This document shows, in pieces, positions 1,900 through 64,000 of a stretch of DNA of 64,000 nt. Location: positions 62,001 to 126,000 of the forward strand of contig BDIU01000009.1 of assembly GCA_002118135.1 (NCBI GenBank). Direction: 5' to 3'. Source of the DNA: Trebouxia sp. TZW2008 (lineage: Eukaryota; Chlorophyta; Trebouxiophyceae; Trebouxiales; Trebouxiaceae). Numbering within the stretch: position 1 is the first letter of the stretch; each line of letters begins with the position of its first letter. Both the position numbers and the translations under genes were made by a program. The notes under the pieces are model-generated. The model ran no database searches, had not been told where the DNA came from, and saw only the letters and a list, made by a program, of their open reading frames with translations.

Positions 1900-4800
1900 C
1901 TACTGCCTTTGGACTGAAGCACTGCCTGAACGCTCAGCTATGCCTGCCACTGCTGTTTGTGGTGGTGGTGATCCCTTCTGACTCTGCACGCTTGACTCAA
2001 GCATGCTCTGCCGTTGCAGCTGGTCCTGCTGTTGTTTCCAGCTGCAACTGTGTACAGCGTCATTCCCATCATGCCCACCAGCCAAGCCATTCTGTCTGTC
2101 AAGAGGCACAAATGTTTGATGCTGATCACTTTCTTGAGAATGCTGAGACTGCCCATTTGGATGCAAACTTTGCCTGTCCTGATGCTGCGTCAACGCTGAC
2201 GATTGCAGTTGCTGCTGCGAAGGCTGCCTAGCAAAGCTGCCATCCAGAGCATCAGTCTGTATTGCAGACACAGACTGATGCTCTGTCTGCTGAAGGGGAT
2301 GCCTGAGTTGCAGCTGTCCTGCATCAGGTTGAGATGATTGTTGTGGCGGAATCTGCTGCTGTAGCTGCTGCGGGTGATGCTGCTGCTGGTAACCAGGCAG
2401 TCTCGCCAGCAGCTGAGAGTCAGGGTGCTGCTGATGCTGCATCTGCAGTGCTTGCTGTGATACTAGCTGTTGCTGTGATGGCAGCATTGCAGCTAAACTA
2501 GCAAGAGTGGAAGCCGATTGCGTCGCAGCAGAGGGCTGAGCAGCAGGGACATTTGCCACAGCAGGGTTTTGCATAGGGGGGCGAGTCAGCGTCTGGGCAC
2601 GTGACTGCCCATGTGACTGCGCATGTGACTGCCCATGTGACAGCGCCTGGCTTGGCGGTGGCAGCCGCACTTGTGACTGTGACGACACTTGAGGCTGTGG
2701 GTGCGTCAGTGCTTGCGGTTGCGTCTGAGACAGGATCTGCGAGAGTGAGTGAGGCCTGCCCTGCCCAGGCATCCCTGAAGGGGATGTGGGCTGGGGTGAT
2801 TGAACCCCAGCAGGCTGCTCTGGTTTCAGAGCAGCTACCACTGCTGATGGTGCTGCTGCTTGTGCTGCTGCTGTCACTGCTGCAGCAGCAGGTGGGTTTT
2901 GTGGCTTGCTGACTTGTGCGCGGGGAATGACATCAGGTATCTGGGACGTGACGTCTAGGCCGAGCATGGCGGCTGCTGTCATAGCTTGCCGCTTGAGTGC
3001 TGCAGCTTCTGCTGCTTGAGCAGCCCCAGATGGGAAATTGCCACCCTGCACACCAGCAATATTGCAGCTGTTGGTTCCCAACGAATCAACAGATGTACAC
3101 TCCAGGGTAGGGAGCCAGATTGGCTCACTGGACTTCCTGCCCTGAAAGCACAGGTGAATGTGCCTGTGGTACTGTTGAGAAAATGTCAAAGACCATGCAA
3201 AGAGTAATGGTGCATAATAAAGCAAACATGACCCTGGCATGTCTTGTGTCCGGTGCAACTCTAGCACAAATGGACTGGTGTAGCAGCACGGTCCAGGCAA
3301 AAGCAATGGTGATCAAGTACAACGTGCTAAAACTAAGCGTTTTGACAAGCTAAAGTTGAGCGTTTTGACTGGCTAGCTGGAAAAGGCCTGCTGAGCTGCA
3401 ATGCTATAAGCGCATTTAGTGGCACCCTGCAAAGGTTTGGTTTCAGGGCTGTAATCTCTGTCAAAAGTCATTTGCCACTGACTCTGTCGAGCTCTGGTAG
3501 AATGAATGAGAAGTGGCAAGGCAAGAACATGTTGGCAAATTGTACAAGCCGTGTCAAGCTTGATGGATGCCAGTGCAAGAATAGTGAAACAGACCCAGAG
3601 CAACAATTATGACGCTCCTTGTTAACACGTGATGGCATGACATTGACACCTACCTCAAAGTAGCGTGCAGCACTTGCCACGTCAGCTGCCTGAGCAGCTA
3701 GCTCAGCAGCTGCTGGGGTATGGGTGGCCAAGCCCTCCCAAACCCAGAAGGGCGGCGGGGTAATGGCCTTGCCCTTGCCCTTTACAATTTCCCACAACCC
3801 TCCTAGGGCTAGCAGCTTCTCAAAGCCCTTGTGCTGCTTGCGAGCCTACAGCAGAGCAAGGCTTGTTGGACCAAATTTGACTGAAACTTATTTAAATTCA
3901 TTGAAATTAAAACAAACCAAGTTTTTTGGATTTTTTAACGGAATCATCTGCATGGTAATTGTGCTGTTTGCACGCTTGACAGCAGCACCATCACCGGAGC
4001 AAATTAGGCTTGCTTGAATGGCCTACACTGTCTTTCAACATCAAGAAAAGAAAACTGCTCCCAAAATTGAGGTGGCACCAATGGAAAATCATCCTCCAGT
4101 GACTGGGGCCAGCAAAAGGGGGGACTATCAATGAGCAAACTGGTTAGTGCTGACTCGCATGCAGTGAACAAGCAAAAAGGCTGTCAATACCTTTTGTGTT
4201 GGGCGCATTGCAGCAGCCTGGGCTGCAGCATTCTGCCCTGAGGGCGGTCTGGAACCGCCCTGCCTGCTCTGATGTCTGGGGGGCCCTGGAGGGGGTGGCG
4301 ACTCTTCCTTGAGGGGCAAGGAGGGGGGTCTTTTGGGGCGCAGGGAATGTCTTACACCTCCTGTGGGCACCATGGTATGGTCAGTTGCCTCTCCTGTACT
4401 GTTGTTCAAATTTGGCGTATCGGACGTCCCTATAAAGACGCTCAGAACAAGCCTGCCTGGCAAGACAGGACTTGGGTCACACACACCTAGCACATGTCCT
4501 GGAACGTGTAAGTATTACTACTTTATCATTGGCATGTTGTGCAACACAGCAGCGACCCTCAGGCATCCCTGCTGTGATGATCAGACAAAGCCAGCTTGAC
4601 AAGATGCGAATTGGGCCACACTTACCTAGCATCTTTGCTAGGATGTCTGATCATAAGTGACGCTAGTGTTTGCTTTCATGCATATCAGTCCAGCCATCTC
4701 AGGAGCTGCTGTGCACCTTGTCACTAGGACCAGCTACTGAGTCAGCTTCTATGCAGCTCAGCGCTAGTACCAGCTGCCAAAAGAGCTGCCATGCTGTTCA

Positions 4801-7517
4801 GATCTAGAAGCAATCACCTGAAGACCTTCTATGCAGCTCATCACCAGAGTCGGCTACCTAGACAGCTTCTGTGTGGCTCAACACTAGTATCAGCTGCCAC
4901 ACGAGCTGCCATGCCGTTCAGATATAGAAGCAATCACCTGAAGACCTTCTATGCAGCTCATCACCAGAGGCGGCTACCCAGACAGCTTCTGTGTGGCTCA
5001 GCACTAGTGTCAGCGGCGAGAAGAGCTGCCATGCCATTCAGAAATAGCAGCAAACACCTGAAGACCTTCTATGCAGCTCAGCACAAAACACAGCTGACTG
5101 AACACCGTCTGTGCAGATCGTCACTAGGATCAGCTAATTAGACAGCTTCTGTGCAGTTCAGCACTACTTTCAGCCACCAAAGGAGCTGCCATGCCATTCA
5201 GAAGTAGCAGCAGCTCACCTGAAGACCTTATATGCAGCTCAGCATAAAACACAGCTGACTGAACACCTTCTGTGCAGCTCGTCACCAGGATCAGCTAATT
5301 AGACAGCTCCTGTGCAGCTCAGCACTAGTTGCAGCCACCAAAGGAGCTGCTATGCCATTCAGAACTAGTGGCAATAAGCTGATGATCTTCTATACAGCAC
5401 AAGAAACAGCTGACTGAACAGCTTCTATGCAGCTCGGCACCAGAAGCTGCTACCTGAACAGCTTTCATGCAGCTCAGCATTACTATCAGCTACCGGATAG
5501 CTTCCATGCAGCTCAGCATCAGCAACAATTACCTAAAGAGCTTCCATGCAGCTCTGAAGCATGCGCATCCCCATCGCGATTGGCCTTTGGCTTGTAATCC
5601 AAATCATGTACATTAGCCTCAGCCTGAGGGTACAGGCGAGAAGAAGAGCTTGACCCCAGTCGGGTTCGCTGGGCTTCAAAGGGGGGGTCAAGGGCTGACT
5701 CAGCTCGTTTAGTACCCTGTGAGCTGCTCCCAGAATTGCTTCTATGGGCTGTTGGCCAGGAAGTTTGGCGAAGACTTTTGCTTGCAGCTTTTGACCTGCA
5801 AAAGTTGTAGCATCTTAGCATTAGGTACGGGCTTGTCCCTGATTGATATGCAGTCGCAATGCTGGCCCCATTGTCTGCACACCTTTGGGCGACAAGATGA
5901 GCCTGATGTATGGCCCACAGAAACAGGGTGAGGCATACCTGTTACCTCCCTCGCGTCCGCGCGTGCACAGGTATAGATCAATCAATCAATCAATTTTGAC
6001 TGGCAGCAAATCACAAACATTCTCTGCAAAGAGACGTTAGCTCGACAGGCATTGAGTTGTTGCTAAAGCCAAGTGGTGCCTTGTGACACTTTCAGGCCCA
6101 GGCCAGCGCCTTTCTTTTGAGCTGTAAGGAGCTGTTCAGCAGCACTCAAGCTCTGTGCTGGAACTTGACAAAACCTCAACGATTGGCATGACATAGGATA
6201 GGGAAAACCAGCTGCACAATGCAAAAGATGACCAGAATGAGAACTTTTGGTCCTGAGTGCGTGAGTATGATGCTGGACAAGATCATACTGACCCAGCAGA
6301 TAAGCATGATCTGCTGGATCATACTTAGCAGATTCAGAAGCCGCGCAAACTAGTTTCCTTGAATAAAAACTTCATGAAAAACCACTCACTCTCTATTTTG
6401 TTCTGTTAAGGAATTCATCATCTCCGGGGTTCCAGGTGGAAATAAAATATTAACAGGTGCCAAAATCAGCATTTACAGGGCAGATGCAATAATCCTCCAA
6501 TAGAGGTTGGCCTCAAATACTGGCACAGACAGCATTCTCATACAATCTTCAATGACATACTGAGCCTGAATGACGAAGCAGTACATACAAATTTATTTAC
6601 ATGCTCAAGCAGCCATGTGTGCTGACATTTCCTTGGGGCATCACAAGCTCACAACATCAGCCTACTCTTTCAGAACAGTGATCATGGTAAATGTCTTGAT
6701 GTAATCCTAAGTCTGCTGAAGCCAGCACAACAGAGCACATCTTAGCTTACATCAGCAGTACAGTATCAACGCTTTAGTGTGTGATGGCATCATAGGGGAG
6801 CACATCAGCTAACCTGTCAGCATGACTCCTACTTTTGCTCTTGTTTGGGACATGCCTGCTGCTTGAGGGTGCTTTGTACTCTGCCTCACCAAAGCCTGGG
6901 TCAATCTCAACATCCAGCTTGTAGCTCTGCAGCAAAAGACAGGGAGAGTGAGTTCACATGCTGCAGCCAGCCAACAAAGCTGATGGCATGTGCCATACAG
7001 TGGCAATGATTATAGGTTTAGTCAGTCTGTGAGGTACTGAAACGGCCCCAACCCCTCCCAAAGCATGATTTTCTGTGCCACATGATGCATGTGGAAGCAT
7101 ATGCAACTGCATGGGTGCAGCAGGGAGGTGTTGATCTTGATCTTGAACTTGCACTTGCAAGGCAATGTTTGACCAAGTGTTATCTGGAGACTGGGCCTTT
7201 TGAATGGCTCATACCTCTTCAGGAGCTTCGCAGGCTGCCTTCTCCTCGTCTGGGTTCATGTAACAGTACCTAAGCGCAACACACCAGTCCTTGAGCCAAG
7301 CTCAAAGCATATAGGTATGACATAAACGGCAACAGGCGTGCGGAAAGCACGCTGACCATGGAGTATCTTCGTCGATGACAGTGCCTGGAGGTAGTCTTCG
7401 CCATTTCTGGCAGTTCGGATTGTCGCATTGCGCCCAGACGTCCTCCTGAGCTTTTGCAGTTGCTGCTGATGCAGATTTTGCCGCACCGGAACCGCTTTTT
7501 TTGCCACCCTTGGCCAT
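1900..7517 (-). CDS. CW-type zinc-finger, glutamine-rich nuclear protein
   Basis: Seven exons join in phase: 7517-7357, 7269-7215, 6926-6814, 5795-5533, 4456-4191, 3845-3654, 3045-1900, giving 731 residues. The start is the ATG at 7517 with a basic Lys/Ser/Ala leader. A CW zinc finger spans about residues 28-67. Trp28 begins it, Cys31 and Cys36 form the C-x4-C pair, and Trp39, Trp54, Cys56 and Cys67 complete it. Its second half (YCYMNPDEEKAAC) is split off into exon 2. CW fingers in plants and animals read methylated H3K4. Residues 351-731 (exon 7) are extremely Gln/Ser/Pro-rich, with QQQ and HGQSHAQS-type runs, like transcription co-regulators. Exon 6 holds a distinctive aromatic patch (PPPFWVWEGLATHT) that I do not recognise. 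The first donor is the unusual GTCAGC. Intron 4 carries a large echo array. The first two exons are the surest; the long downstream chain rests on phase agreement only. Confidence 0.78.
4690..5560. repeat. Echo array of CW-gene exon 4 donor
   Basis: About 14 degenerate units of 55-65 bp, built on GAGCTGCATAGAAGCTGTT on the minus strand, fill intron 4 right after the exon 4 donor at 5533. Several units repeat the exon end followed by GGTAGC or GGTAAT, so they look like copies of the real donor. The pattern reads as tandem duplication of the exon-intron junction. Confidence 0.8.
5861..5995 (+). repeat. Dispersed repeat family R1, copy a
   Basis: This copy matches related segments at 14327-14460 and 53229-53347 on the other strand, and partly at 48453-48500. 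Shared landmarks are CCATTGTCTGCACACC, then CAGAAACAGGGTGAGGC, then ACCTCGCG and CACAGGTAT, and a terminal (ATCA)n run. The short tail and intron locations suggest a SINE-like retroelement. The copy lies in an intron of the CW-finger gene. Confidence 0.65.
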
Positions 7518-8174
7518 ACTGGACGCTGTTCAAATGCAGAAAGCTTTTACGACGGGTTGGCGGGGTCGAGAAGCTTGTGGGGCGCTTTCACTCACGAAGC
7601 TAGCAAGTGAAGAGCACTTGTTTTGATCTTTGCTTTTCTATCCACAATAAATTCCGCACAAGCGCTTCCTGCCTGTCTGCCCGGGCACCTCGTGCAACAT
7701 CGAGCATGCACAACGGCGTTTGTGACTCCGCACAACGCACAGATAGCAAGTAAGGCGCAAAGTTTGCTGCACGAACTTTGCAACAGCGGCTTATTCTGCT
7801 AGCAATAAAAAACGAAAAAGCAGGCGCTATGCGAGCTGCGAGAACATTTCCGAAACGCAATGCATAGTCAACACGCCTGACAACGCCGCCCCCAACACAA
7901 AGACATCTTCGTCGCGTTTGATACTGCAGCTCAGGCGACGCGCAGCCACCCTTGGCCCCGAGTGTGATCCGGATCAATTACGTCCAAGTACGTACCAGAG
8001 CGCGCGCTGTGTGCTGCGTGCAATGCGTCTTGACGGGCATGTGCAGCAAATCTGCAGCGTTCGTCCGGTCGCACGTCGTGCAATTCCTCCCTGCAGCAAG
8101 TTGCTCGTGGCATGATCAGCCTTGGCCTGAACTTGCAGGTCGATCGCTGGACCCCAGCTCCGCCTGCGCAGCGA
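7518..8174. promoter_or_regulatory. Bidirectional promoter region, CW-finger and PITH genes
   Basis: This 657-bp gap separates the divergent start codons of the CW-finger gene (-) and the PITH gene (+). It is visibly richer in CpG (CGCG, GCGCGC near 7990-8010) than neighbouring introns. No other coding exon is convincing here. Transcription start sites cannot be placed from sequence alone. Confidence 0.55.
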
Positions 8175-9657
8175 ATGCCGCCTTTCCAAGGCTGCTGTGC
8201 GCACGATCACGACTGTGAAGAGGCTGACTGCGGACCCTCGTGGTCACTGCACGAACATGTTGACCTTGCACGGGTGTGTCACAAGCTTGGACTTCTGCTC
8301 TTCTACAGTTGCACAAACTCTTTCAGCGATCCCAGGTTGAACGGCTCGGCTCATTGATGTGCATGCATGGCTTCTGTAAGTGTATACTGTCCACTGCAGG
8401 TCTCATGCTTGAATGAAGCCAGCGCCGGCAGCGCAAAGCATGTCTTTCGAGCCTGGCCAGAGCGCCTTCAGGATCCAGCAATCCCTCTAGACAGCAATGA
8501 GGATGACGCAGAGCTGCTGATCACAATACCATTCAATGGTGCCGTCAAAGTCAAGGCGATCAGCATCATTGGAGGCGATGATGGCTTGTCACCTGCAAGA
8601 TTGAAGGCGTATACGAATCGCAATGACCTGGATTTTGCAGCAGTCTCAGACATGGCTCCAGTGCAAGCATGGGATCTGCAAGAGCAACAGCAAGCCAGCA
8701 TGGAGTATCCCACACAGTAAGCATTTACAACAATGTCATTTGTCCAAGCATGCAATGTATGTCAACTGAATTCCTGGCTTGCATTCTTCATCTTGGTGAG
8801 TCATGTGCAACTTGCATGAATATCTCCACCCAAGTTGAGACCTGCACCAATCACACTTGAAAATTCACTGCCGCATGAAACCAAGTGCAACAGCGTGCAA
8901 GGCGCTGTCAGGCATATACCTGTTTTGCTAACCCACACTTCATTGCGCATCATCTGGCGCATGATACATTCTGCCTGTCATCAGCTGAAGCTATGATGAT
9001 CATCCCCATGACAAAACCATGACATAATCTAGTAAATGCTTAGTAACAGCAAATGGTCAGTGGTCAGTGTTGTAAGTATATATATTTGAGGTTGTGGCAT
9101 GTGCCTTGCAGAGTGCTCGGCCACTAAGCGTAGGCTGGTGCAATGCGCTGCAGAGTTGCGAAGTTCAATGGTGTGCATACCTTGATATTGCATATTCCAG
9201 AAAACTTTGGGGCAGACCATACCAGGGTGACATTTATTGGCATCAAAGGAGATTTCACAGAGGTAATCACAGGCTCCCTCTTCTTCTTGCCAAAATAGCA
9301 GTACGTCACAATGCAGACATCTGCTTAGTAGCTCACGTCTGCTTGTTCTGACAGCAGTGTAGTTTGTTGCCTCTTCTGCAGAACATACATGTGGCTACAG
9401 CTGCCATTGTGCATGTGTCAGCTGCAGTGACCAACGACAAAGAGCGTCTGATGCAATGCATGCAAGCTGCATTCATCTTGATCATAGCATGCAAGCAAAT
9501 CTCTGATAACTTGTTGGATGCTGGTTCCTGAGAAGTGTGAGCGTGACTGCAGAGAAAGACAGGACCTGTAACTGCGGTCTATGAAGCAAGAGCAATGCCT
9601 AAAGACCACAAGGTTGCAGACCCCAGCAAGACTTTCCGAGAAGTCGGTGGCTACTGA
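8175..9657 (+). CDS. PITH-domain protein (PITHD1-like)
   Basis: Four exons join in phase: 8175-8273, 8400-8716, 9154-9262, 9553-9657, giving 209 residues, the usual length for PITHD1. The His/Cys-rich leader (CCAHDHDCEEADC) resembles the His/Cys-rich start of animal PITHD1. The PITH core begins at VSCLNEA (residue 34) and includes ELLITIPFNGAVKVKAISI, IPENFGADHTRV and FIGIKGDFTE. It ends with the typical VYEARAMPKDHKVADPSK and a GGY terminus. PITH domains bind the proteasome in thioredoxin-like TXNL1, and PITHD1 is a free-standing cytosolic version. The donor of exon 2 is CA|GTAAGC. The introns are short and carry no echo copies. Confidence 0.93.
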
Positions 9658-10468
9658 TCTGATCTCTGCACAGCACATACTTTGGCATCACATCTGGACC
9701 CTGGAATGCATTGCTGACTTGGGTGCATTTGTCACCACTGTCCATGCGCACCTGTCTGCAAACACATTTAGGCAAGCTGATGTTTGACACGGTGCACAGC
9801 TGATTGTCTCAGTGCAGTCAAGCTTGATGTTGATTGCTTCCAAGATGGTGCGTCTACGGCAGTCTGTGCAAGTGCTGATGCCAATGCACATTCGAACTGA
9901 TGGTAGCATGTGTTACATGACACAGTCCTGTTTGCCAAATCTTTTCAAGCTGTGAGAGCTGCTGCTGCAACTCTCAAAACGATCCAACTCAGCACGAACC
10001 GTCATGGTGGTCAAAAGTCTGATCACTTTGGCTGTAGAGCTGATGCGCTTGGACGCATGCAGCTGTGGCAGGCTGCAAAGTGCAACCAGATAAGCAAAAT
10101 ATTGCGTTAGAGGGGACGACAAGCTTCACGACAATTATTGTTGCAACGTACTAACAGAGGTGAAAACCATCTGTCGAGCCACTGTGCAAATTTGAAATGA
10201 CACCCTAAAGGCCTATCCAAATTAAAGTGGAGACTTTTGCTGCGATCTGTGCGTGCTATCTAAACATTGTCAGCTATTGATCATGCTTCTACACTTGCAA
10301 ATACGCAACGCAGACATATGTTCAGGACTCAATGACATCATGGCATGCATGCAAAGAAGAAGATGGACATTTCATTCTGGAACACTCCCATGCTGTGTAA
10401 GCATGATGCTACTAACTAGACACATTTTGGCAACAACATCACCACGACAGTGGTAACAAGCATTAGCA
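9658..10468. other. Intergenic region between convergent genes
   Basis: This lies between the stop of the PITH gene (+) and the stop of the galactosyltransferase gene (-) and should hold both 3' UTRs. I see no coding exon, RNA gene or repeat here. Confidence 0.6.
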
Positions 10469-25491: not shown

Positions 25492-25508
25492 TCACACGCA
25501 GAATGGAT

Positions 25509-49634: not shown

Positions 49635-50253
49635 GCTGTCAGCTGTTGAACCAGCGGTGAACAGTTGCTGTCACAGAAGCAGCAGTCGCCATGTTGGCAA
49701 AGCTGCTGATCTCAACAGCAGTTTGCCTTCATGAGTTCGTGCCCACAGAGGCGCACCAGCAAATTGCAGTTGTTGGACTGAGATCGGAGCGCTATGCACG
49801 GCTGCAAGTCAAAGGCTCAAGCGCGCTCGTTCACAAGGTTTCTTACGCTGTCAAAGTTTTCTGTTCAAACCGTAACATCGCCTCCGTGTTCACGCTGCGC
49901 CAAAGCTGTCCTGACTGTCCTGTCATAGCACCTCATTAGCTTCGTCTCGCTTCAATCGCTTGCTCGAAATCGCTGGTACTCCTTGTGCAGTCCGCCGATC
50001 GCGCTTGATTGCGGCATCCTTGCCGACGGTGGTGTCCTTGCAAACAGGTCGATACATGTGGTGACTTACGGGCAGGTTCCTCTGAAGTACAGCTTCATCG
50101 GCAAACAAAGGGGAGCCCTGCTGCACATGCCCTTGATGACCAGTTATCAGTAGTTTCGGGGCCACAATACGATCGGCGCAAACCCCAACACCGCGATTCA
50201 GCTGCTGCAGACAGCTTCTGTAGCTGGTCTGCAGCAGTGCACGGGCACAAGGA
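49635..50253. promoter_or_regulatory. Bidirectional promoter, CemA-like and MUB genes
   Basis: This 619-bp interval separates divergent starts at 49634 (-) and 50254 (+). An 82-codon plus-strand ORF at 49691-49939 has no recognisable family and may be chance or an upstream ORF. Confidence 0.5.
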
Positions 50254-51424: not shown

Positions 51425-53041
51425 TCAAGTACACTAGCACTGGTCCTCAGCACGCTTCCAGTCTACAGGCAACGATCTGTTGCTGGTTCTTTGTGCCGTC
51501 CTGCTGAGCCTACAAAGAGGCTGAGATAACCAAGTTGGCTGTGCAGCACATCAGCTTCATCAGCTTAGATGTGAGCGGTGTCACAGACACTCTCATGCCC
51601 AAGTGACCTCTGAGTCTCAAACAGGCTGACACAGCCAACCCAACTTGCAACAGCTTGTACATTGCTCAGCTTGACCATGACTCAAGCAGCTAGTAACACT
51701 ACAAGCAACTGCCCCATGACTAGTCAGTGTTCCCTTTTTTGCAACAAAGTGTTTGAAAGTATAGTTAGCACAGCTGTCGAGGCCAGACATAGTCCTCTTT
51801 CGGCAACAAGCATGACCCACATGCCTGTGTGCCGATGTCATCAGCTACGCGTTCAGCGTTTGCAGAAGAGTCCCAGCTATCACTCAATTCTGGAGGGGAT
51901 TAGATGCTGTGTTAGGATGCCTGCGGTCAATCAGCGAAATTCATCATGATGACAGTACTTGTGATCAACAGATTTTCAAGAACATACCACGAACAGAATC
52001 TCCGACATTGTGTTGCATGGTCGTGTCACATGGCAAGCATCAGACAATCCTTGCCCCGCAAAATGAGCACGCTTGTTTGCAAACATTACTTCCCACATGA
52101 ACGTAGAAAGTTCACCATGGCTGCGGTTCTAGTAATTGCAAACAATGTGCGCAATTTCGAGCATGCCAGTTTGCAAGTCCACACCTACCTTGTAGCGGCG
52201 TGCTTGCTAGCATTGCGATCTTTCAAATTCGCCACAACAGCTGCGATCTGCGCTTTTGCAGAGGAGCGCTGCATTCTGCAGATGTTCCTGGGGTGATAAC
52301 AGGCAGGTTGAACGAAATTTCTGCAATATGACAAGTGCCAATACTGCCTTAAGTACCAGAACAAGTCGGGAATTCGAAATAGGACAAAAATTCCCAAAAA
52401 TCTCCCTGTGCTTGTGGCAGCTTTTGGCGATCGCTATGTCGATACACAGGCAGCGCAAGTCACGTACTCAGCTACGTTCTCGCAGGAAACACCAAGTGGT
52501 GTATGTGGGGAGTAAAGATGGTGATGTGACGGTGGTTGTGAGATCGTTGAGCATCTGCTAGGTACGCTTGAACACGAACTCACGCATATTCCGGGAAGCA
52601 ACTCCTGCATCTGCAGCTGCTTCACGACTCTTGACTCAAGCGGCATCGCGAAACTTCATCGTCCCATCAGTTACTCGGGCCACGAATTGCCCGGGAAGCA
52701 ACAGCTCTCCATAGTTGCCTCCAGCCCAGCAGCGATCACGTAGCCTCGATTGCACGTCAATCTTGCAGCTTTGTCACCTCTGCATGCCTAAGACTGGCTG
52801 TTCTCCTTCAGCATAGCAAGCTCACTCTGTTCAAAATGCTCCACCAGGCTTCAGGCTACTTCTAGCCACTTCTACAAACACTCAGCTCAGCTTATGAGAC
52901 GTTCTGCACCCCAGCTTCATGCTGCCTGCAGGCACAATTTACATTGCAAGAGCCATCGTCAGGCCTTTGCATGGCAGCAACCTCGGTCCCTGCAAGGTGC
53001 CTCAGCAGTAGACACCAGCAGCTAAAGCAGTAGCCGCTAGC
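51425..53041. other. Intergenic region upstream of the DDT/PHD gene
   Basis: It spans the MUB 3' flank and the promoter of the DDT/PHD gene. On the minus strand 52273-52192 reads like a short first exon (MQRSSAKAQIAAVVANLKDR, then a GTAGGT donor), but no matching second exon could be found. No other gene is supported. Confidence 0.45.
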
Positions 53042-56000
53042 ATGGAGAATGGCAACTTAGCAGCTGGACTGCAGCAAGGCAGCTTGTATGCATCAGCCAG
53101 GCCATCAAGACTGAGCAGGCGTACCATGGCTGCTGATGTTCAAGCCACCTCCATAGATGGCACAGATGCCTCTGACGCAGAGGCAGTTGCCACACACAGC
53201 AAAGGTGAGTGCAGCATCACACAGTGCTTGATTGATATCCGTGCCCACGTGAGCGCGAGGTAGGTCACAGGTACGCCTCACCCTGTTTCTGAAGGCCATA
53301 CAGCAGCCTCGTTTTGCCACCTGAAGATGTGCAGACGATGGGGCCGGCACCGCGACTGCATGATACAGTGTGCACAGCGAATACATGTCCAGCATCACGC
53401 AGTGGCATCATGCATGCTGTCTGCATCTGCGATTGTGCAGAAAAAGGCAAGCTGTGCACATCAGTGATGGCTGAACAGGCAGATGGGAAGGTCAGAGCTT
53501 TCATTCCTGACCTCTTACAGTAGATTGAGTTGCATTGGTGATGCATGCCTTGGCTGAATCCAAGCTGTGGCAGTGCCCTGCATGTGTAGGTGGCTGCACC
53601 CCTACAACAGCGCCATGCCATTGTGCCTTTGTGGCAGATATGAGACAGATGCAAGCTGCTTTGACCGTATGACGGTGCAAAATGCCATTGGCTAGCGATC
53701 TACATTACTATTTCATGGCATCTGGCCAAGCATGTTATCCCAGGCGTCAGATTCCTGATGTGCATTTGGTCTGTGCCATGTGAACAAGAGCATGTGCTTT
53801 GCAGCTGCTGCCTCAGAGCCAAGCCATGATGATGACACATCAAATCACATGACAGCTGGTGATGAACCTGAATCAGTAGCAGACCCGGCCTTAGTCAACC
53901 CAGAAGCTGGTCCAGCATCTGAAGCTTTAGGCAATCCAGAAGCTGACATAGCAGCTGATGCTGATGGGCAGGAAGCTGTAGAGGAATCTGCTCCAGCAAT
54001 TCCAGCAGAGATCCCAGACAAGATTCTGCTGCAAAGACTAGCTGACAGATCTGCTGTCAATGCTCCATCAGATGCAATTGGTAGGTCCAAGCTCTTTGCA
54101 ATGCCCTGCCTGGCTCTCAGCATGCATGATGACGACCATACTTGTGCACATGCAACAGCGCTTCAACAGCACAGTGTCGTGTCTTGCTCAGAATGCATCT
54201 GTTTCATGACAGCAATGTGTGTACTGGTGCTGCATGATCACAATTTAAGCTCGGCTTGTGCAGCATGCTGTTGCTCATCTGCTCGATGCAGTCAAGGGCA
54301 AGAAGTTCTGTCAAGCACAATGTTGTTATGGTTGGCATGCGTGCTTGACTTGGTCGAGCCTTGTTTGTCCATGCTGCTGTAAAAGGCTTTTGCTAAAGTT
54401 GTATGTAGATCATGAGCTGTTGTCTCAATTCTGGAAGTGTATTGCCACATGTTTGCAGGAGATGCATTAACAGCATACATCATATTGAGGCATTTGCATC
54501 AGATAGCAGTGGTGTGCCAATGCCTCTGAGTCATTACTTACTAATAATGGCATGTAAGAGTTGGCTGCAGAAGTCTCGGACGTCTCAGAAGTCTCAAATT
54601 GTCATGCAAGTTTGTTGCGAAGGATGCTTTGGCTGCATGCAACACACTGAGGGCAGCCTCATGGCAGATTAGGCTGATGTTGTTTGTGTTTGAGGAGCTG
54701 TGTGCATTTCGTTTCAGGGGCTGTCCCTCTTTCGCTGCAGGGGACGCATTGGCAGCATACAACATACTGAGGTACTCTCAGGGCAAATCAAGCTGAGCCC
54801 CTTTGCTTTGAGGAGCTGCGTGCAGCCCTGTTGGACCCCAACCCCTCGCCCTCACGGATGAACTGCATGCAATTTCCTGCTTGTGTTGCAGGGGATGCTT
54901 TGGCTGCGTGCAACATACTGAGGGCATTCTCATGGCAGATCAGGCTGAGCCCCTTTGCCTTTGAGGAGTTGTGTGCAGCCCTGTTTGACCCCAACCCCTC
55001 GCCCCTCATGGATGAACTGCATGCAGTTTCCTGCTCGTGCTGCAGGGGATGCTTTGGCTGCATACAACATACTGAGGGCATTCTCATGGCAAATCCGGCT
55101 GAGTCCATTTGCCTTTGAGGAGCTGTGTGCAGCCCTGTTCAATCCCAATCCCTCGCCCCTCATGGATGAGCTGCATGTAAGTTGATGCACGGTGCCTTAG
55201 CATATGCTCTGTTCCCCTTGCCGTCTCAGCATAGCACCTGCAGCATTGGTCCTCTCGCTACACACATGTTGTGCCTTGAAGCTGTGCTGTCCTGAGTCAG
55301 GAGTAGGATGACCAAGGCAAACCTTGAATGGCGTGTCTGACGATGCAGCAGCGCATGTCATGATCATGCCATCGTGCTGTGATTGTTTGAAAGCATGGAA
55401 AGCTTGGTAACATGAACATGCGTCGCATGATCATGGTCAAGAAAACCTGAACAATATCAGCCGACTGATGCTGTCAACATTGACAAGACTAGCCAGAAGA
55501 TTGTGGCCAAATGCATTGCGTGCGTTTGCAAGCAGTGGCATTTCTTTTTGACGCTTTTGGCTTAATGAAGCATAACCTGAAATGCTCACATGAATTCTGA
55601 GCTGGGCTAAATGCTTCTGGGTCATGTGTTCCTGCTGCTGCAGATATGCCTGATCCGATCGCTGGCAACTGACGAGAACAAGGCAGAGCGTGCAGAGCGT
55701 GGTTTAAACCTGGGCTGTTTAGATGCCATGAGCTGGCCAGAGTTTGTGTGGGAGTACCTGTACATGCATGAAGATGATCTTAGACATCACAGGTATCAAA
55801 GACACAATTCTGTTTGTTGTCGCAACCACATGCCAGCAAGCTAACAAGCGTTTTGGCTGCAAACGGAAACATAGACAAACAACATGGCAATGTCACCAAG
55901 CCTGAGTGCGTCAGAATGTAAATGTCATTTGGCACCCTGCCTGTAATACCACATGACTTCAAGTTTTGGTGCACAACTCTAAGAGGCACTGAGAATGCTA

Positions 56001-59000
56001 CACTGTGAAGTCAACCAACAGATTAATATGACCACTCAGCAAGTATATGCTGGAACATGTTGTTGTTGTTATTGTTATTATCATTATTATTATTATCATT
56101 GTTATTATTTATTATTGTTGTTATTATTATTGTTATTATTATTGTTAGTATTATTACTATTGTTGTTATTATTATTATTACTACTCAGCAAGTCAATCTG
56201 GTGCAGGTATACCCAGTTGCAGCCAAAGCCGGATGCAAATGAGCTTGGTGCAGCACAGAAGCGAGCCTCTTCGCCTGCGACAGAGGCAGCTTTCAAAGGC
56301 GGCTTGTCAGATCAAGGCACAAAGACAAGCATTGCAGTCACAGGCCGAAGTCCCAGCAAATATGGCAGGGCTGCTGGAAACAATCCTGCAGGAGGGGCAG
56401 CCGCGAGTGGCCCCTCAGGGGCTGCTGCCAATGGCCCTGTTGCAGGCTCTGAAACCATGAATGAGGTCATTGCCAATATTAGAGCTGTCATGAAGCGACA
56501 GCCCTTCCGACATAAGACTCAAGTGGAGTATTACGCCTTACCCCCAGGAGTCAAGGTAACAAGCTCCTGTTCAAGTTCATGCCAGCACTTGCTTTGCTTG
56601 GTTCTAGCAAAAGGTTGAATGCTCAGCATCAAACCGTTTTGTAGCAGGACTTGGGTGCAGGTCATGTTACTTATCGCTTGCTGCATTGAGTCGTGTACAC
56701 GGCACAAACCTTTGGAGAATGTTGCATGCAAAAGCACCACACATTTCTGTCTGGCTTGCAAAGCTGTTCTTGGTTGGCAGCCACTTTTGTGGACATTTGC
56801 CATCAAGTCAGGTAGCTGTGTAGCAGTCAGCTCAAAGATAAGTAGCGTGTTTGAAATAAACATTGAATCAGCAGTGCAGAGGGACATATTACAAATGCAC
56901 GGCCATGGGTTTATGCAGAGCCATGCTTTGCCAATGTCTTTTCTTCCTCCTTGGACTTCTTCTGCTTCTTGCAAGCAGAAATTTGGGTCAACTTGTCTTC
57001 TTCTGCTGCTGCTGCTGCTGCTGCTGCGGCTTCTGAATTTTGTGCTATCTTCAGGCAGCCATTCTGGTGAGCTTGGTGAATGACTTGCTAGACATCAGCA
57101 GCGTGCGGCACGAGATTGACAAGAGGGAGCAGGCGGGGCAGTGGGTGGCCGGCAAGGGGGGTACCGGGGGGTCATTTCCCATGAGGTCTGAAGAAGAACG
57201 GGCCAGGCGGGCTGACGCCACCTCAGATGCAGAGGTGAATGGTCACCATAGGTTTTGCATCACTTCTTGTCCAGACGACACTGTTTGGTCAGTTCTATGA
57301 TCTGCATGTAAGTCAGGCAAGCTGATGACGACTCGAATACATATGTAACACATTGTGACGCATGCCCCAATTTTTCCCCCTGTTTTGTCTATGAGAAAGT
57401 TTCGAAAATTGTAAGGCAGAAACTGGGAACAAGGCAGAAATGTTTCAGGCTGACGGCAACACAGAGGTATGCGTGCTGTGTGGGTCGGGTGGTAGCCTGC
57501 CATGCTGTGCTGTGCTATGTGGTTGTTAGACCTGCCAATTTACGCATTGCAGGGAAACTCCAATGATAGCAAAGTATAGCCTCAGGCAAAAGCAGATGTA
57601 TTTGAGGATGACGGCAACACAGATCTGTGTGTGCTTTGCGGCCTGGGTGGCAGCCTGATGTGCTGTGCTGTGCTGAGCTGAACGAAATGTTTTGAACACT
57701 ATTCTGTACCCTGCAGGGAGCTTCTGACAACAGTGAAGCACAGCCTCAGGCTAAAGCAGAGGTGTTTGAGGATGATGGCAACACAGACCTATGCGTACTG
57801 TGCGGTCTGGGTGGCAGCCTGCCGTGCTGTGCTGTGCTGTGCTATGTGGTATGTTTGATTAACTGCTCTGTACCCTGCAGGCAGATTCTGACAACAGCGA
57901 CGCACAGCCTCAGGCTAAAGCAGAGGTGTTTGAGGATGACGGAAACACAGACCTATGCGTGCTGTGCGGCCTGGGCGGTAGCCTGCTATGCTGTGACGGC
58001 TGCCCTGCTGCCTATCACATGCGCTGCATTGGGGAAACGGCCAAGTCTATTCCTGAGGGGGAGTGGCTGTGCCCTGAGTGCAGCGTTGGTGGCAGAGGTA
58101 TGTGCTGCTGTTGTGTAGATGTGGTTTGTTAAAGATTTGTGGATGCTGCTATGGCCGTCGTTTGCTTCAGCTGCAGTGCCAGGACTGTGATTTCGACAAC
58201 AGAAGTACATGCTGCCAACAATGTTGCGCCTTTGCGCTGGTGCTTTTGTGCCTTTGTGCTGCATTGGCAGCTCCTCAGCCCTGACCGTGCTCATGACATT
58301 GACATCTGCTGTGATTCACATATACTTCAGCGCTTCCAGGTTGCTCTTTGGTTCAAGAGAGGCAACAGAATTGCGGCCCCTTGGGCAGAATCAGCACAAG
58401 CAGCCCTTTTGCTGCTCACAAACGATGACCACTTGACAATAGCGACACATGTTCATCTTGAAGCTTACGCTTCAACCCCAGTAATGTTTCCAGGGGAGGC
58501 AGCAGGGCTGCGCATCCCAAGGGCAGGGCAGAACCAGCACAAGCAGCCCCACTGGATGTGCCACGGGTGCCTGTTCAGGAGTGGTAGACCAGCCCTTGGG
58601 GACATTGGCAGGGAAGCCCTTGAAGAGGGCCCTGTGCCAATGGACAAGTGAGGCGCAGTCTCTGTTGTTCACTTATAGAGTGGTTTCTCATTGTGACATC
58701 TGCTTTTGCCAACAAAATGGTCCTTGCATCAGATTGTGTGTCTACTCAGAGGCACCACTGCGGTCAGGATGCAGTGCTTGGCTCGCAATTGCATTGACTT
58801 GATTCAAGAATATCCTCATAGCAACTACACACATATGAAGAACCTACTGTACTGTACTGCAAACGTCACTGACATTTGACTGTTACTGTCACTGTCAGTG
58901 TGACCACCAGTGTTGCCATTGTGGTGTTGTTATTGTCCCTGAGTCTGTCATCTGTGTCTCATGTGGCGTATGCAAACAGCGTAGCTGGCTGCCTATTGTA

Positions 59001-62000
59001 CGTCAAGGGTCTTCTCTGTGCTGTGAAGTTCTGTGCAGCCTCACCATGATCGCAGACATGCTGTCTTATGCAGCAATATGCCTAACCACTTTGGATCTGC
59101 ATTTGACGTCGTGCCACTGCTACCTGGTAGCTGCTCTCTCAGCGCTAGGTATGGCACGAAGAAGATGTTGGTCAGAAACCGCAGCGCACAAAAGGGAAGT
59201 GAGGAAACGCCAATGATTGCACCTGTGATGCCTATCAACGGTGCATGGTATCTCAATGGTCATGTCTATGCTTTTATGATTGATTGTGACTGTTGCATGT
59301 TTCCTTGTTATGCATGGACAAAGGGCTGTGGTTTTACGATGATGGTTGTGCATGCAGGTGGACAGGTGAGGTAGCAGCCCAGGAAGCAAAGGCACTGAGG
59401 AAAATCAAGGGGGAGGAGCGACCCCACCCCACCTCTGTCCAAGCCCTCCAGGAACCCCCTCAAGTCAAAGGTGATACCACACATAACATAACAACAACAG
59501 TAGCCCTGACAGTCTCAAAAGCAATTATGGCAATCACATGAGTGATGACATCAACAATACAGGTATGATGTTGATGAAGTTGGCATTAGTCATAGCGATG
59601 ACAGTGGTTTGTGTGGTCTAAGTCATGTCTTGCCAGGTGCGCAAGTCAAGGAACTGCAGTCCAAACGGTCCCTGTTTGGGCAAGGCTGATGCAGACTTTG
59701 CCAGCAGGCAAGCGGAGAGGCATGTCAGATTGCCCGCTAGATGTGTCTTGAACAGCCTCAATACTGACTCAAGTTTTGTATTTGGTCTCTGTCATGCAGA
59801 GCTTGCAAGCTTGTCAGCCGAGGGTTACGTCAACCGATACCGTAACAGCTGGACTGCAGCTGTGGCCGCCACCAAAACCTTTGTGGACGACATGGCGCGT
59901 AAGAGGGGCCGGCCCCCCGCAGGGGGCGGGGGGCGAATCAGCATCCCAATGGCTGACCTACCAGTGCCTGTGCCTCTTTCCAAATTTCAATGGCCATCTG
60001 TGAGCACCTGTTAACTACAGCTGCTTTGCATTACCGTTATCATCATCACAGCACTTGTTACGGCCTGCATGAAATGGCCAGAAAGGAGGCGGCCCCTTGC
60101 AGGAGAAGGGGGGCGGGTCAGCATCCCCAAGGCTGACCCACCTGTGCCTGTGCCTTTTTACAAGTCTCAATGGTCATCTGTGAGTACCCAGTCATGTGTA
60201 CTCTTATCATTGATTGATGTTGTGATCACTGTCACTATGCCCCAGAGGAAGGGCTCCACCCCTGCAGGAGGAGGGGTGGGATCAGCATCCCCATGGCTGA
60301 CCACCCAGTGCCTGTGCCTCACTCCCACTTCCAATGGCCATGTGCAAGCATCCTTTGATTTCAACATCGATGTTCAGTACTTTTATGATCACTATCACTA
60401 TGACCCAGAGCAGGGGCGACCCCCTGCAGAGGGAGGGGGCTGGGTTAGCATCCCCATGGCTGACCTGCCAGTGCCTGTGATTCTTTTCAAATTATAGTAG
60501 CCGTCTGTGACCACCTGCATGCTTGTCACAATGTATCTAGATCCAGACTCTACATGTTTGCCTACTAGCAGCTTCAAACATTGTGTTTGCGGAAGCCATT
60601 CATCTTCCCACCAGCAGTCTAAGGTATGATGCCAATTGCATCTGCCTGCTTACCCTGCAAGTCCTCATCCCACAAGTCTGCTGATGGCTAGTACGTTCAT
60701 ATGCGTGCATTTGCACGACGGTCCAGCTTGCGTTCTTGTCTGCACATGCGTGTGTGTGCATAGCCAGCTGGGAAGTGTCAGAGGAGGGAGGGGAGGGGGG
60801 GGGGTCTGGTGCAGTGTAGTCACTGTCACATATGCCGCAACCCTCTGCTAAAGCATTCAGGCGCCAGTGCATTTCTGTGCGTCAATCCGTGTGCAAGTAG
60901 AGCTTGCACTCATGTTTGAGCGCATATAGCCTGCACTCATGTCTGGAACGCATGCAGCTTGCATCAGTGTCTGTTCGTGTGTGCGTAGTCAGCTGGCAAG
61001 GGGCAGCGGGGGACTTTGGTGCGGTGTGGACAATGCCACATGTGCCGCAACCCCCTCATGAAGAAACCCTGCCTCAACCCCATCGTGCCCCGTAGCCTAG
61101 ACGGCCTAGGCGATGAGGGCACTTCTGCACCCAAGTGAGTTTGGCTGCAATAGCTTTTCCTCTTCTTGCACATGCCATTGATGCAAAATTGACACACAAT
61201 CTCACGCAGATTAACATTGACCCCTCCAGCATTGCAACTGCTGACATCTGTGAACAAGATTGCATGACCTTCTGTCAGCAACAGCTCAGCAGAAGCAATC
61301 ACAAGGAGACGGCTAGGACTGCAGCTGGTCTTGCTTTGTGATCTGATTCAGTTGTGTTAATATCACGCATGACCAGGAATGTTCTGTGGAAACAATAATG
61401 TGTTGCTATTGATACAGGCTGATGACCATTGCACATTATGCTATGAAGCTGGAAAGGGAGGTGTGGGGCGTTTTGGAAGGGCCCTGGGGCAGCGACACCT
61501 GGATGAGCTGGCGCAGAGACTGGGCTCAAAGGGTGAGCCCTGCCCTCTTCCTCTTCACACTGCTAAAGTCCATAACACTTATCATACACTTAGCAAGTGT
61601 TGACAGTCAGATCATGTTATGTAGACATGGGCAAAGCTTTCCACACAGTATTGTTGATGTTTTGCTTGAAGGCTGACTGTCATGCTGAATGAGCCCACAT
61701 CAAGAGAAATTGACCTGACTCTCTGCAGATAGTTTGTTAGTGTGTATGCGCATGACACGTGCATCCTAAATGAAGGCAATGTTATGTGAGGACAAAGTTC
61801 TTGTGAGAAAGTGCCACTCACTGAATTGTCAATTCTTCATTCTTAACGTGACAGGCTCAGCAGGTCCAGCTAGATACATACTGGAGCAATCAACTGTCTC
61901 CACCCAGTTTGGTCCTGTGCTATCCTACAACATTTGAAATGAGCATGGAGAGAGGTGATGTCCGCTGTTACATCAGACGACTTTTGTAGTTGCATTTTCC

Positions 62001-64000
62001 TGCAGGTTAGAACAGCCACAGTGGCAGAACCTGTGGCTCACGCAATCTTGGAGTTAGAATCTCATCTGCGGCCAACTGCCCTCAGCCCCAGCTGGGGCAG
62101 CCAGGGCAAGCCCCAGCCCACTGGGGCTATCGCCCGCAAAGGCCCTGCAAGCTCAAGGGCCACTCCCAAGCCTGGCAAGGAGCCAGCTGTGGCCACCGCC
62201 AGCAAAAGTGGCAGACTCAGCACAGCTGGCAGCTCAGGCCGTAATGGTATGTGATGTGGCCTACTGCCCTGCTTCTATGTGGATGCGCTGTAACATTGGC
62301 AATTTGTGGTGTTTCCTTCATAGCAAAGAGCAAGCTGGATGCTTGTGAAAGAGAGTGTCAAGACAGGCTAGTTAACAGTCTGACCGTGCATGTGTGATGC
62401 AGACGGGGCTGCCTCAAAGCCAAGGCGCAACTACAAGGAGGAATCAGACTCAGGCCCCTCTGAGTCGGATGAAGAGGAGCAGGACCCATTTGCAGCAGGC
62501 GATGATGATGACACATCCATTGTGGACAACCAAGGGCAGTCTGGTCTGAAAGGCTGGGCATTGAACCAGCGCAGCAAGTGGGGCACAAGCTTCAAGGGCA
62601 GTACCAGACTCCCGCAGGATGCTGCCAAACACCTAGCTCGCAGGTACAATGACAGCTCTCAGTAAGATAGAGTCAGCCCTGAGGCAACTGTGTCCTCTTT
62701 GTGTGGCGTGTTGATGACATGTGTATGTTTGGGCAGTTGTCAGGCACTCAGGCCAATGGTAAGCCCAGAGATACTTGGCAGTCAACTAGTACAAGGACCT
62801 CTCCGCCCTGCATGTCCAACATGGTTGGTTTAGGTTAGCAAATGATCCAACTGGTTGGAGACAGTTGATTGCTTCTGTACGTACCGAGTTGGGCCTGCTG
62901 AGCCTGCCTAGCCCACATTTAGAATGAATGAAATGAATGAATGTTGCCATGGTCCCAAGTTTGTGAAATTGCAGCAAGTGGTGTACAAGCTCCAAGGGCA
63001 GCATCAGACTGCCTCTGGATGCTGACAAACGTCTTGCTTGCAGGCATCATTACTATCATGAGCAGGCTTGTCGACAATTGCGTTCATATTGTGCAGCATG
63101 ACAATAATCCTCTTCCTTATTACAACCAATTGCAGACAGCAAGGGCTATACTGACAGATCTCAGTGACGCATGGGCAAACAACCAAGCAGTCCATACATG
63201 TCGGGATTCATTGAGCTATCTGTGTGTCCGTGGCTGCTTTCAGCATTCTGTGCGAGTGTGGTTGCAGGGGTGGGGCTGTACGGGTGGCAGGCGCCAAATA
63301 CAACACCAAACATCTGGCCCTGCAAGCCCGTCTTGCCTGGAGAGGAGCCATGCAGGTGAACCACCACAATATCGTCAGTTGTACACTTTGCTGTCAGCGT
63401 CATGGTGTTGCATTGATACAGCTCACACACACGTTTGCTCAGTTGCCTGCGTGTATATGCTTCTTGCCTGGAGAGGCGCTGTGCAGGTGAGCCATGACGC
63501 AACTTGCAGATGTATGCTACAATAGCATGCATAACCATTTCAGATGTGTGTTGCACTCAAAGGTACTCAATAGTGAGGGTGCACTTTGCAACCAGCATCA
63601 GATGTCCCTAGTGACTTGCAAAAGGCACAAACCTTTCGTGTTGGTGCATACTGGCTCACACATAGGCTTGCTCAGATTCACCAGCGCGCTTAGGTTGCTG
63701 TCAACTCAGGTTTGCATTTTGCCTGCTGGCGTAGCCTACAACCAGCAGCGTGCTTGATCATCATCATCATCATCATCATCATTATATCATCATCATCATC
63801 GTCATCATCATCACCATCATCATCATCATCGTCAAACCATCAGTACCATCATCATCGCGGTGTGTCATATCATCAGTATCATCATGGTGGGTTGTGTTAC
63901 CGTATAGGGAGCACGTACAGCGTCAGAGCTGGCATTACAGCTGCGTAGGCTGGACAGCTTCATACAGTGGGAATCCCTAAAGAGACCCTTGGTGGACATT
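53042..64000 (+). CDS. DDT/PHD chromatin protein, PTM-like (partial at 3' end)
   Basis: Seventeen exons in phase: 53042-53204, 53805-54080, 55046-55176, 55644-55792, 56207-56555, 57055-57234, 57881-58097, 58494-58647, 59143-59247, 59358-59470, 59800-59999, 61001-61134, 61418-61532, 62006-62246, 62403-62643, 63268-63355, 63908 to the edge (983 codons). A DDT domain covers about 147-240 (DALAAYNILRAFSWQIRLSP; MSWPEFVWEYL). Then AAILVSLVNDLLDISSVRHE. A PHD finger at about 440-480 has LCVLCGLGGSLLCCDGCPAA, YHMRC and GEWLCPEC. A CXXC-like knuckle (RCGQCHMCRNPLMKKPC) lies near 688. The end LALQLRRLDSFIQWESLKRP matches plant PTM. PTM-type proteins read chromatin; in Arabidopsis PTM carries retrograde plastid signals. 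Exons 9 and 10 have alternative boundaries. Confidence 0.86.
53229..53347 (-). repeat. Dispersed repeat family R1, copy c
   Basis: It matches the copies at 5861-5995 and 14327-14460, from TTGATTGATATCC to GATGGGGCC. It lies in intron 1 of the DDT/PHD gene, antisense to copy a. Confidence 0.65.
54450..55045. repeat. Four echo copies of the DDT-domain exon
   Basis: Tandem units near 54455-54520, 54610-54735, 54741-54893 and 54894-55045 copy GDALAAYNILRAFSWQIRLS and, in the two nearest, the whole exon. The unit is about 152 bp. The real exon (55046-55176) differs at its end by CTGCAT|GTAAGT; the nearest copy has CTGCAT|GCAGTT. Confidence 0.92.
56050..56190. repeat. (TTATTG/TTATTA)n microsatellite
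   Basis: About 130 bp of T/A-rich trinucleotide repeat lies in intron 4 of the DDT/PHD gene, close to the acceptor at 56206. Poly-Leu and poly-Asn ORFs here are artefacts. Confidence 0.95.
57420..57850. repeat. Three echo copies of the PHD exon, acceptor side
   Basis: Units near 57435-57530, 57553-57685 and 57717-57848 repeat AKAEVFEDDGNTDLCVLCGL and stop after the first zinc-ligand pairs of the PHD finger. The third unit is open, in phase, and has TGCAG| and |GTATGT sites. Confidence 0.92.
58325..58425. repeat. Echo copy of exon 58494-58647, acceptor side
   Basis: CGCTTCCAGGTTGCTCTTTG followed by GGCAGAATCAGCACAAGCAG repeats the start of the next exon (AGQNQHKQPHW region). Its frame is broken. 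Confidence 0.75.
58672..58862. mobile_element. MITE-like element, decayed copy 3
   Basis: The segment shares TGGTTTCTCATTGTGACA at the left, TACTCAGAGGCACCACTGCG inside, and CTACTGTACTGTA at the right with the element at 21943-22110 (TACTCAGAGGTGCCACTGCA). The ends are degraded. Confidence 0.5.
60065..60500. repeat. Three echo copies of exon 59800-59999 donor side
   Basis: Copies near 60070-60185, 60240-60350 and 60405-60515 repeat GGRISIPMADLPVPVPLSKF coding sequence. The first ends in TCATCTGTGAGTA, close to the true donor CCATCT|GTGAGC. Confidence 0.9.
60760..60850. repeat. Echo copy of exon 61001-61134, acceptor side
   Basis: AGCCAGCTGGGAAGTGTCAG with a poly-G tract, then CACATATGCCGCAACCCTCT, repeats the CXXC-like exon start. 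One unit is clear. Confidence 0.8.
61850..61928 (+). repeat. Dispersed repeat family R2, copy 3
   Basis: CAGGCTCAGCAGGTCCAGCT, then AGATACATACTGGAGCAATC and CCAGTTTGGTCCTGTGCTA match 33866-33955. Confidence 0.7.
62818..62938 (-). repeat. Dispersed repeat family R2, copy 4
   Basis: On the reverse strand the R2 core runs GGCAGGCTCAGCAGGCCCAA and later CAATCAACTGTCTCCAACCA. It is preceded by a CATTCATT run, and lies in an intron of the DDT/PHD gene. Confidence 0.65.
62955..63050. repeat. Echo copy of exon 62403-62643 donor side
   Basis: GCAGCAAGTGGTGTACAAGC and CCAAGGGCAGCATCAGACTG repeat the SKWGTSFKGSTRLPQDAAK part of exon 15. Confidence 0.85.
63450..63495. repeat. Echo copy of exon 63268-63355 donor side
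   Basis: TCTTGCCTGGAGAGGCGCTG then TGCAGGTGAGCC repeats the LAWRGAMQ end with its donor. Confidence 0.85.
63752..63845. repeat. (ATC)n microsatellite
   Basis: An ATC/GTC run lies in the last intron of the window, before the exon at 63908. The His/Ile/Ser ORFs through it are artefacts. Confidence 0.95.

Follow-up and report, generated by a model that had tools for sequence, protein, structure and literature searches.

By which route can introns grow without transposons, a kind of lengthening that to our knowledge is poorly documented? The question is raised by a stretch of 64,000 nucleotides (the window, C9:62001-126000) on contig BDIU01000009.1 of the green alga Trebouxia sp. TZW2008, whose genome assembly comprises 68.5 Mb in 527 contigs. 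Introns in this window contain partial copies of the exon ends that they adjoin, and such a partial intronic copy is called an echo here. The exon-joined copy is the gene and is under strong selection, and the echoes mostly look like near-neutral debris. These arrays are probably the product of frequent local tandem duplication that passed through a coding filter and lengthened the introns.

Direct repeats in the window and in other nuclear loci

Comparison of the window with itself (self-blastn) yielded 96 direct high-scoring segment pairs (HSPs), 91 of them with an offset below 5 kb, versus 10 inverted ones; at offsets of at most 3 kb and lengths of at least 30 bp, 89 direct HSPs stood against a single inverted HSP. 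The direct repeats fall into 34 clusters (15.4 kb in total), a number in good agreement with the initial annotation, which had reported tandem copies of exon ends in roughly 30 introns or gene flanks. Seventeen further nuclear loci, 165 kb in all, contained 165 direct HSPs and 4 inverted ones, grouped in 67 clusters that cover 15% of the bases. A third-order Markov control of all 244 kb examined contained 1 direct HSP versus 770 in the real sequences (this and the other 244-kb totals include low-GC contigs left out of the later nuclear counts). HSP identities were about 65-97%, so that the copies are not identical, and genome-wide searches with three of the arrays matched in each case (3/3) one place, the array itself, the repeat counts being lower bounds. 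The units are thus head-to-tail at one locus and direct, not inverted, as in minisatellites and local tandem duplications, and the copies are of local tandem origin.

The smallest offset per cluster in the 17 nuclear loci had a median of 138 bp (5-95%: 73-215 bp), and the offsets of the 67 clusters were distributed 28/19/20 modulo three, without a strong frame bias. The periods of at least 30 bp found by Tandem Repeats Finder (TRF) were distributed 16/10/16; they were broad, mostly 30-240 bp, and lacked a sharp nucleosomal peak. A nucleosome-sized unit was considered, as the BLAST offsets peak at 120-180 bp when the low-GC contigs are included, yet it is not claimed in view of the broad TRF periods. 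The contigs C7, C17, C18 and C19 (loci L007 and L016-L018) were excluded from the TRF-period and the 17-locus counts.

Echoes in two anchored genes

In two genes, which encode a mannosyltransferase and an HPAT-family protein (Table 1), exon boundaries were set from Trebouxia homologues and GT-AG signals; these are the anchored genes. The best named match to one exon-joined query was P0012 from Trebouxia C0004 (66% over the entire query), and to the other P0001 from Trebouxia C0005 (56% over 64%). Mean intron lengths are 786 and 756 bp. The two genes contain 14 clusters: 11 consist of exon-end copies (the cluster at HPAT exon 5 included), two lie in intron interiors (11777-12010 and 26392-26815) and one, at 18155-18298, appears to be a coding repeat, which leaves 13 intronic clusters. 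In 11 of these 13, exon-head copies lie upstream of their own exon and exon-tail copies downstream, exactly the sidedness that had been described.

Other parts of the initial annotation were too generous. Echoes had been placed in almost every long intron, but at E<=1e-3 they are present in 8 of the 12 introns of at least 500 bp in the anchored genes; similarly, up to about fourteen copies had been reported, but the highest number counted at any one junction is six, at locus L035. The proposal that introns grow by duplication across junctions fared well, with recognizable arrays making up 37% and 16% of the intron bases of the two genes and recurring elsewhere in the genome. A suggested role in intron gain did not, as the copies adjoin their own exon end inside a pre-existing intron. 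The statement that short-intron genes lack echoes is consistent with 5557-11777 and 46643-54613, the intervals in which PITH and CemA matches lie and which are free of clusters.

Echoes elsewhere in the genome

The survey outside the window used 25 exons chosen by rule from kinase and helicase family-search entries whose open frame was no longer than 140 aa, taken in order of E-value (the first 19, with one entry skipped at a contig end, plus 6 of a further 19). Nine of the 25 have echoes, seven on the acceptor side and six on the donor side, so that the pattern is genome-wide, as had been anticipated. These nine include L044 and L047, which were excluded from junction-level counts because their splice sites are not fixed, while L041, whose acceptor is probably misplaced (both echoes read CA), was kept in the counts. 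About 30-150 nt of exon were copied, the exon-side breakpoints being variable. Repeat coverage around the 25 exons was 0.21-0.28 at exon ends and in the 400 bp immediately upstream, versus 0.07-0.19 beyond 400 bp and 0.13 in mid-exon; downstream it was 0.19 in the first 200 bp, followed by about 0.1. Twelve of the 32 clusters in these loci touch the chosen exon; the other 20 are unassignable, as the neighbouring exons are not known.

Selection on exon-joined copies and decay of echoes

Fifty echoes contain at least 30 nt of exon (shorter ones were left out), at 21 junctions with assigned splice sites. The duplicated unit spans the junction, joining the end of an intron to the head of an exon or the tail of an exon to the start of an intron, and in 32 echoes the alignment extends at least 15 nt into the exon part as well as into the intron part. 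At the 15 junctions with at least two echoes, the ratio of nonsynonymous to synonymous changes (N:S) was 3:24 for changes specific to the parent, that is, the exon-joined copy, versus 178:79 for echo-specific changes (Fisher P 4e-9). With a neutral N:S ratio of 2.69, calculated from the transitions and transversions (ts/tv) of the intron parts (231:168), omega is about 0.05 for the parents and 0.84 for the echoes. At the observed ts/tv the echoes do not differ significantly from neutrality (P 0.11), but at lower kappa they do (P 0.044 at kappa 2 and 0.003 at kappa 1). The echo-specific changes are thus near-neutral and the exon-joined copy is the selected one.

Frameshifting gaps are present in 18 of the 50 echoes and stops in 9, with either in 24. 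Duplicated or mutually exclusive exons would comprise a whole exon with both splice sites and an intact frame; each echo has one exon end. The echoes had been described as carrying their splice sites, which is true of most but not of all: AG or GT is kept in 41 of the 49 echoes where it is covered, and the echo of HPAT exon 7 is among those that lost it.

Arrays in a third gene and at a stop codon

Six further junction clusters were assigned in a WD40-like gene on the plus strand. The exons of four of the six have a homologue at E<1e-3, the cluster at 39020-39337 has a weak one (E 0.16), and the cluster at 42601-43630 was assigned by its donor alone. Together with the 13 clusters of the anchored genes they form a set of 19, from which 18155-18298, 39911-40040 (boundary unclear) and 45768-46643 were excluded. 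The last of these arrays copies the end of the terminal exon, and the stop-codon end is plainly visible at the parent (45855) and in two copies (46018 and 46181). Because echoes of a stop codon and its 3' flank occur as well, splicing is not required for the process, and it is not called splice-linked here.

Junction shares expected from a coding filter

For a uniform duplication process with a filter against coding damage, the share of junction clusters was 0.25 with introns of 800 bp and 0.89 with introns of 150 bp. Simulations of this process comprised sequence decay, near-identical BLAST settings and exon sites evolving at 30% of the neutral rate, and were free of large deletions. Runs matched to the observations (final introns of 560-911 bp, repeats in 0.15-0.55 of the intron bases) gave shares of 0.37-0.51, and two runs just beyond this range gave 0.57 and 0.62. 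Runs that started from introns of 80-150 bp and grew fast and recently (depth 0.3-0.6) reached 0.62-0.98; in introns reaching at least 500 bp, 0.57-0.92 of the bases were then recognizable repeat, which is more than observed.

Proposed mechanism and alternative explanations

Under the favoured explanation, stretches of roughly 70-215 bp would be duplicated head-to-tail often across the nuclear genome, each at its own place, possibly through error-prone repair, such as the fill-in of staggered breaks, or through replication slippage. Duplications within coding sequence would mostly be lost, while one that straddles a junction would be tolerated because the exon-joined copy still has an entire exon with a functional splice site. 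The other, outer copy would stay in the intron, be spliced out and decay. With repeated rounds, exon heads with their acceptors would accumulate upstream and exon tails with their donors downstream, thereby lengthening the introns. Like duplications would also occur at a stop codon and its 3' flank. Exon definition, in which the acceptor and the donor closest to an exon body are paired across it, would keep the spliceosome off the outer copies.

Several observations weigh against this explanation, and two of them, the low pooled dN/dS and the shortage of stops, together with the splice dinucleotides kept in the full set, would also favour echoes that are real alternative exons or splice-site choices, which is nevertheless quite improbable. 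The pooled dN/dS between parents and echoes is 0.26, below the about 0.4-0.5 reckoned for echoes that were neutral from birth; pooled echoes contain 10 in-frame stops versus 17.8 expected; single echoes of L027, L035 and mannosyltransferase exon 3 have many silent and few amino-acid changes; and the near-neutral result stems from a singleton test that set aside 88 shared or multiply changed sites. Splice dinucleotides, in line with their frequent retention in the full set, are kept in 22 of 23 echoes that span 25 nt on both sides versus 638 of 993 nearby dinucleotides, a strong raw contrast that shrinks because the parent side is fixed (a fair expectation is nearer 0.74-0.77, with P about 0.01-0.02 by hand arithmetic). 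Finally, the 11 junction clusters among 13 in the anchored genes exceed the share in the matched simulations of the filter alone (P 0.0006-0.014). The low pooled dN/dS hints at some past use; either some echoes were in use for a time, or detection favours echoes with few amino-acid changes. Against alternative exons stand the strong constraint on the exon-joined copy beside near-neutral echo-specific change, the frameshifts and stops in nearly half of the echoes, their single exon end, and the 39 of 67 array offsets that are not multiples of three. Use of the echoes as mini-exons with a donor at their exon-side end was considered in view of the low pooled dN/dS and rejected, as none was seen at the expected position at L035, the sole acceptor array inspected (six echoes, by eye), and the singleton test placed the echoes close to neutrality. 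Judged from the same sequence features, a role of the echoes as constitutive exons also appears disfavoured. Even less probable is an origin of the arrays as newly gained introns, through duplication of exon segments that carry AGGT (the Rogers/Hellsten model). Exon sequence next to splice sites is indeed tandemly duplicated, but two-sided self-comparisons of the two anchored genes and the 25 loci revealed no exon-head copy downstream and no exon-tail copy upstream at E<=1e-3, apart from L047, where the exon start is not fixed (the laxer search for echoes covered the exon's own side only). Chance similarity, assembly error or dispersed repeats deserve practically no credence: the Markov control was nearly empty, the copies differ from one another, unlike what assembly duplicates tend to do, and the three arrays searched each have one genomic place, which also leaves the dispersed-repeat objection raised at the outset without support.

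The excess at junctions bears on a further alternative, namely that duplication is directed to exon-intron junctions, through nucleosome-scale breaks or transcription-linked damage, and not merely filtered there, with the outer copies decaying all the same. We regard this as possible but rather unlikely. It would be in line with the share given above and with that in the set of 19 clusters that includes the WD40-like gene, where exon evidence is weaker (17 of 19; P 3e-6 to 5e-4 versus the matched simulations), as well as with the repeat coverage around the 25 exons, which is highest in the exon ends and just upstream. However, the two runs just beyond the matched range reduce the contrast for 11 of 13 to P 0.04 and 0.08, and if the short-unit TRF arrays at 11297-11380, 11577-11657 and 15148-15195 are counted as interior, the share falls to 11 of 16 (P 0.01-0.12). 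Recent growth from short introns yields high shares by the filter alone, though with an excess of recognizable repeat. A circular-shift test of arrays against 19 exons found 7 loci versus 5.2 expected (P 0.20; with covered bases as the measure, P 0.07); its null permits placements inside exons and is unsuited, and the result still counts against a junction preference. The broad periods without a nucleosomal peak and the varying depth of the exon-side breakpoints also argue against targeting. As far as the simulations go, a junction preference beyond the filter is possible, not proven. A bolder version, in which junction-directed duplication on the nucleosome scale is the main engine of intron growth in this algal lineage and some echoes are useful for a time as alternative exon ends before they decay, would account for the excess at junctions and also for the remaining constraint on codons, but we consider it unlikely. 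Local duplication followed by a coding filter is retained as the preferred explanation.

Relation to known systems

The arrays resemble introners (PMC9860276) in the mass addition of intron sequence, which for introners includes green algae. Introners are dispersed and mutually similar, whereas the three arrays searched here are locus-specific. The closest precedent appears to be the potato RdRp gene. As Ma et al. 2016 (PMC4974935) describe, a unit of intron end plus exon head was duplicated there and gave rise to an additional spliced intron and an additional exon, as shown by RNA reads. That unit is of the same kind as an acceptor-side echo. The potato case, however, concerns one gene with a new spliced product, whereas in Trebouxia many genes are involved, echoes are also donor-sided, up to six copies were counted and the outer copies look dead. 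The AGGT model, by which introns are gained through tandem duplication (Rogers 1989, Hellsten 2011, Gao and Lynch 2009; accounts in PMC3443670 and PMC4974935), shares with the arrays local tandem duplication and duplicated splice signals; in that model an exonic segment is duplicated and the intron lies between the copies, whereas in Trebouxia the intron pre-exists and grows. For Drosophila, Lehmann et al. 2010 (PMC2891723) describe novel intron positions created by tandem duplication, a small number of cases at proto-splice sites inside coding sequence. Partial exon duplication is there, too, a source of gene-structure change, and intronic exon-end arrays are not mentioned in the relevant passages of that paper. 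Regarding the origin of the duplications, fill-in repair of staggered breaks yields small, homology-independent head-to-tail duplications in mouse and human cells, as reported for nickase-made breaks with 43-bp overhangs (PMC8355091), and the same may apply to the alga.

In the open-licence literature, at the level of titles and abstracts, no description of intronic exon-end arrays on a genome-wide scale was found, and a term search of the main texts of some Trebouxia and Asterochloris genome papers likewise found none. The finding in Trebouxia is an event of the potato type that affects many genes and both exon sides, is repeated, and apparently mostly leaves no surviving product. Individual events of intron growth can be read and ordered, and since selected and decaying copies stand side by side, the arrays come with their own clock and their own neutral control. 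The arrays also raise the question of how the spliceosome ignores several near-copies of a real acceptor or donor, and gene finders in Trebouxia genomes could be misled because echoes resemble exons.

Further features

Table 1 Genes, parent exons and duplicated units in the window
Feature	Position	Strand	Evidence and remarks
Mannosyltransferase gene (PF11051)	31285-25714	minus	six exons, clean reading frame, GT-AG model
Exon 1, parent	30665-31285	minus	tblastn to Trebouxia P0012, GT-AG model
Donor-side echo of exon 1	about 30479-30572	minus	GT kept
Two acceptor-side echoes, exon 2 head	29984-30210	minus	AG present; in-frame stop in one
Exon 2, parent	29643-29860	minus	homologue and GT-AG model
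Two donor-side echoes, exon 2 tail	29357-29573	minus	GT present; second seen by laxer search only
Three acceptor-side echoes, exon 3 head	28941-29331	minus	AG present
Exon 3, parent	28741-28890	minus	homologue and GT-AG model
Acceptor-side echo of exon 4 (parent 27491-27635)	27680-27802	minus	in-frame stop
221-bp tandem duplication fully within intron 5	26392-26815	minus	exon sequence absent
HPAT-family gene	20114-10469	minus	most of gene modelled; exon 4 end and exon 5 start approximate
Two acceptor-side echoes, exon 4 head (exon start 18407)	18470-18719	minus	self-comparison
Acceptor-side echoes, exon 5 head	16890-17457	minus	acceptor position approximate; excluded from junction-level counts
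Two acceptor-side echoes, exon 6 head (exon start 15712)	15775-15988	minus	AG kept in one
Donor-side echo, exon 7 tail (exon 14022-13935)	13778-13851	minus	two in-frame stops; GT lost
Two donor-side echoes, exon 8 tail (exon 13228-13096)	12743-12957	minus	GT kept in one
Two acceptor-side echoes, exon 9 head (exon 12171-12043)	12280-12418	minus	AG present; nearer one short, E 0.28
WD40-like gene: array, 137-148-bp units, acceptor-side echoes (parent about 41322-41422)	40914-41392	plus	self-blastn; tblastn P0025, P0027
Donor-side echo of exon ending about 42128	42067-42307	plus	self-blastn, homologue
Array, about 192-bp units, exon tail then donor (GTGAGG or GTGAGT in most copies)	42601-43630	plus	first copy taken as parent; homologue-free exon assignment
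Array, about 180-bp units, acceptor-side echoes of terminal exon	44604-45752	plus	one match in genome
Array, 163-bp units, terminal-exon end and 3' flank	45768-46643	plus	TRF 3.5 copies
Array, about 160-bp units, acceptor-side echoes of PHD-finger exon (parent about 57872-58078)	57431-57995	plus	acceptor position approximate

The predicted protein P0025 of a relative contains a different repeated peptide upstream of the exon that matches 41322-41422. This peptide may be a translated intron array, and arrays may be turning over between lineages. Near the end of HPAT exon 4, the 63-bp (21-codon) repeats at 18155-18298 appear to be coding and in frame. Internal repeats were absent from the 27 proteins fetched.

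Parent exons are not established for the clusters at 4695-5557, 20965-21245, 21421-21824, 32605-33181, 34072-34591, 59904-60517, 60789-61056, 62571-63044 and 63331-63494; large tandem arrays among them are 4695-5557 (units of 120-161 bp) and those within 20965-21824 (147-176 bp). No match was obtained in an Rfam scan of the window, in a six-frame Pfam scan of part of it (two frames of 15 kb), or in a comparison of 42400-43700 with plasmid records.

The four low-GC loci L007, L016, L017 and L018 have a GC content of 0.39-0.44 and contain direct as well as inverted repeats; the repeats are dense in three of these loci, tRNAs are present in three, and the loci are probably organellar. A class distinct from the echo arrays is formed by long pentanucleotide arrays (TTTGC, AGCAC, CCTGC-like) at 41755-41966, 11297-11380 and 34729-34880. 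At the beginning of the window, a coding stretch for an RTA1-like membrane protein extends from 52 to 618 on the plus strand.
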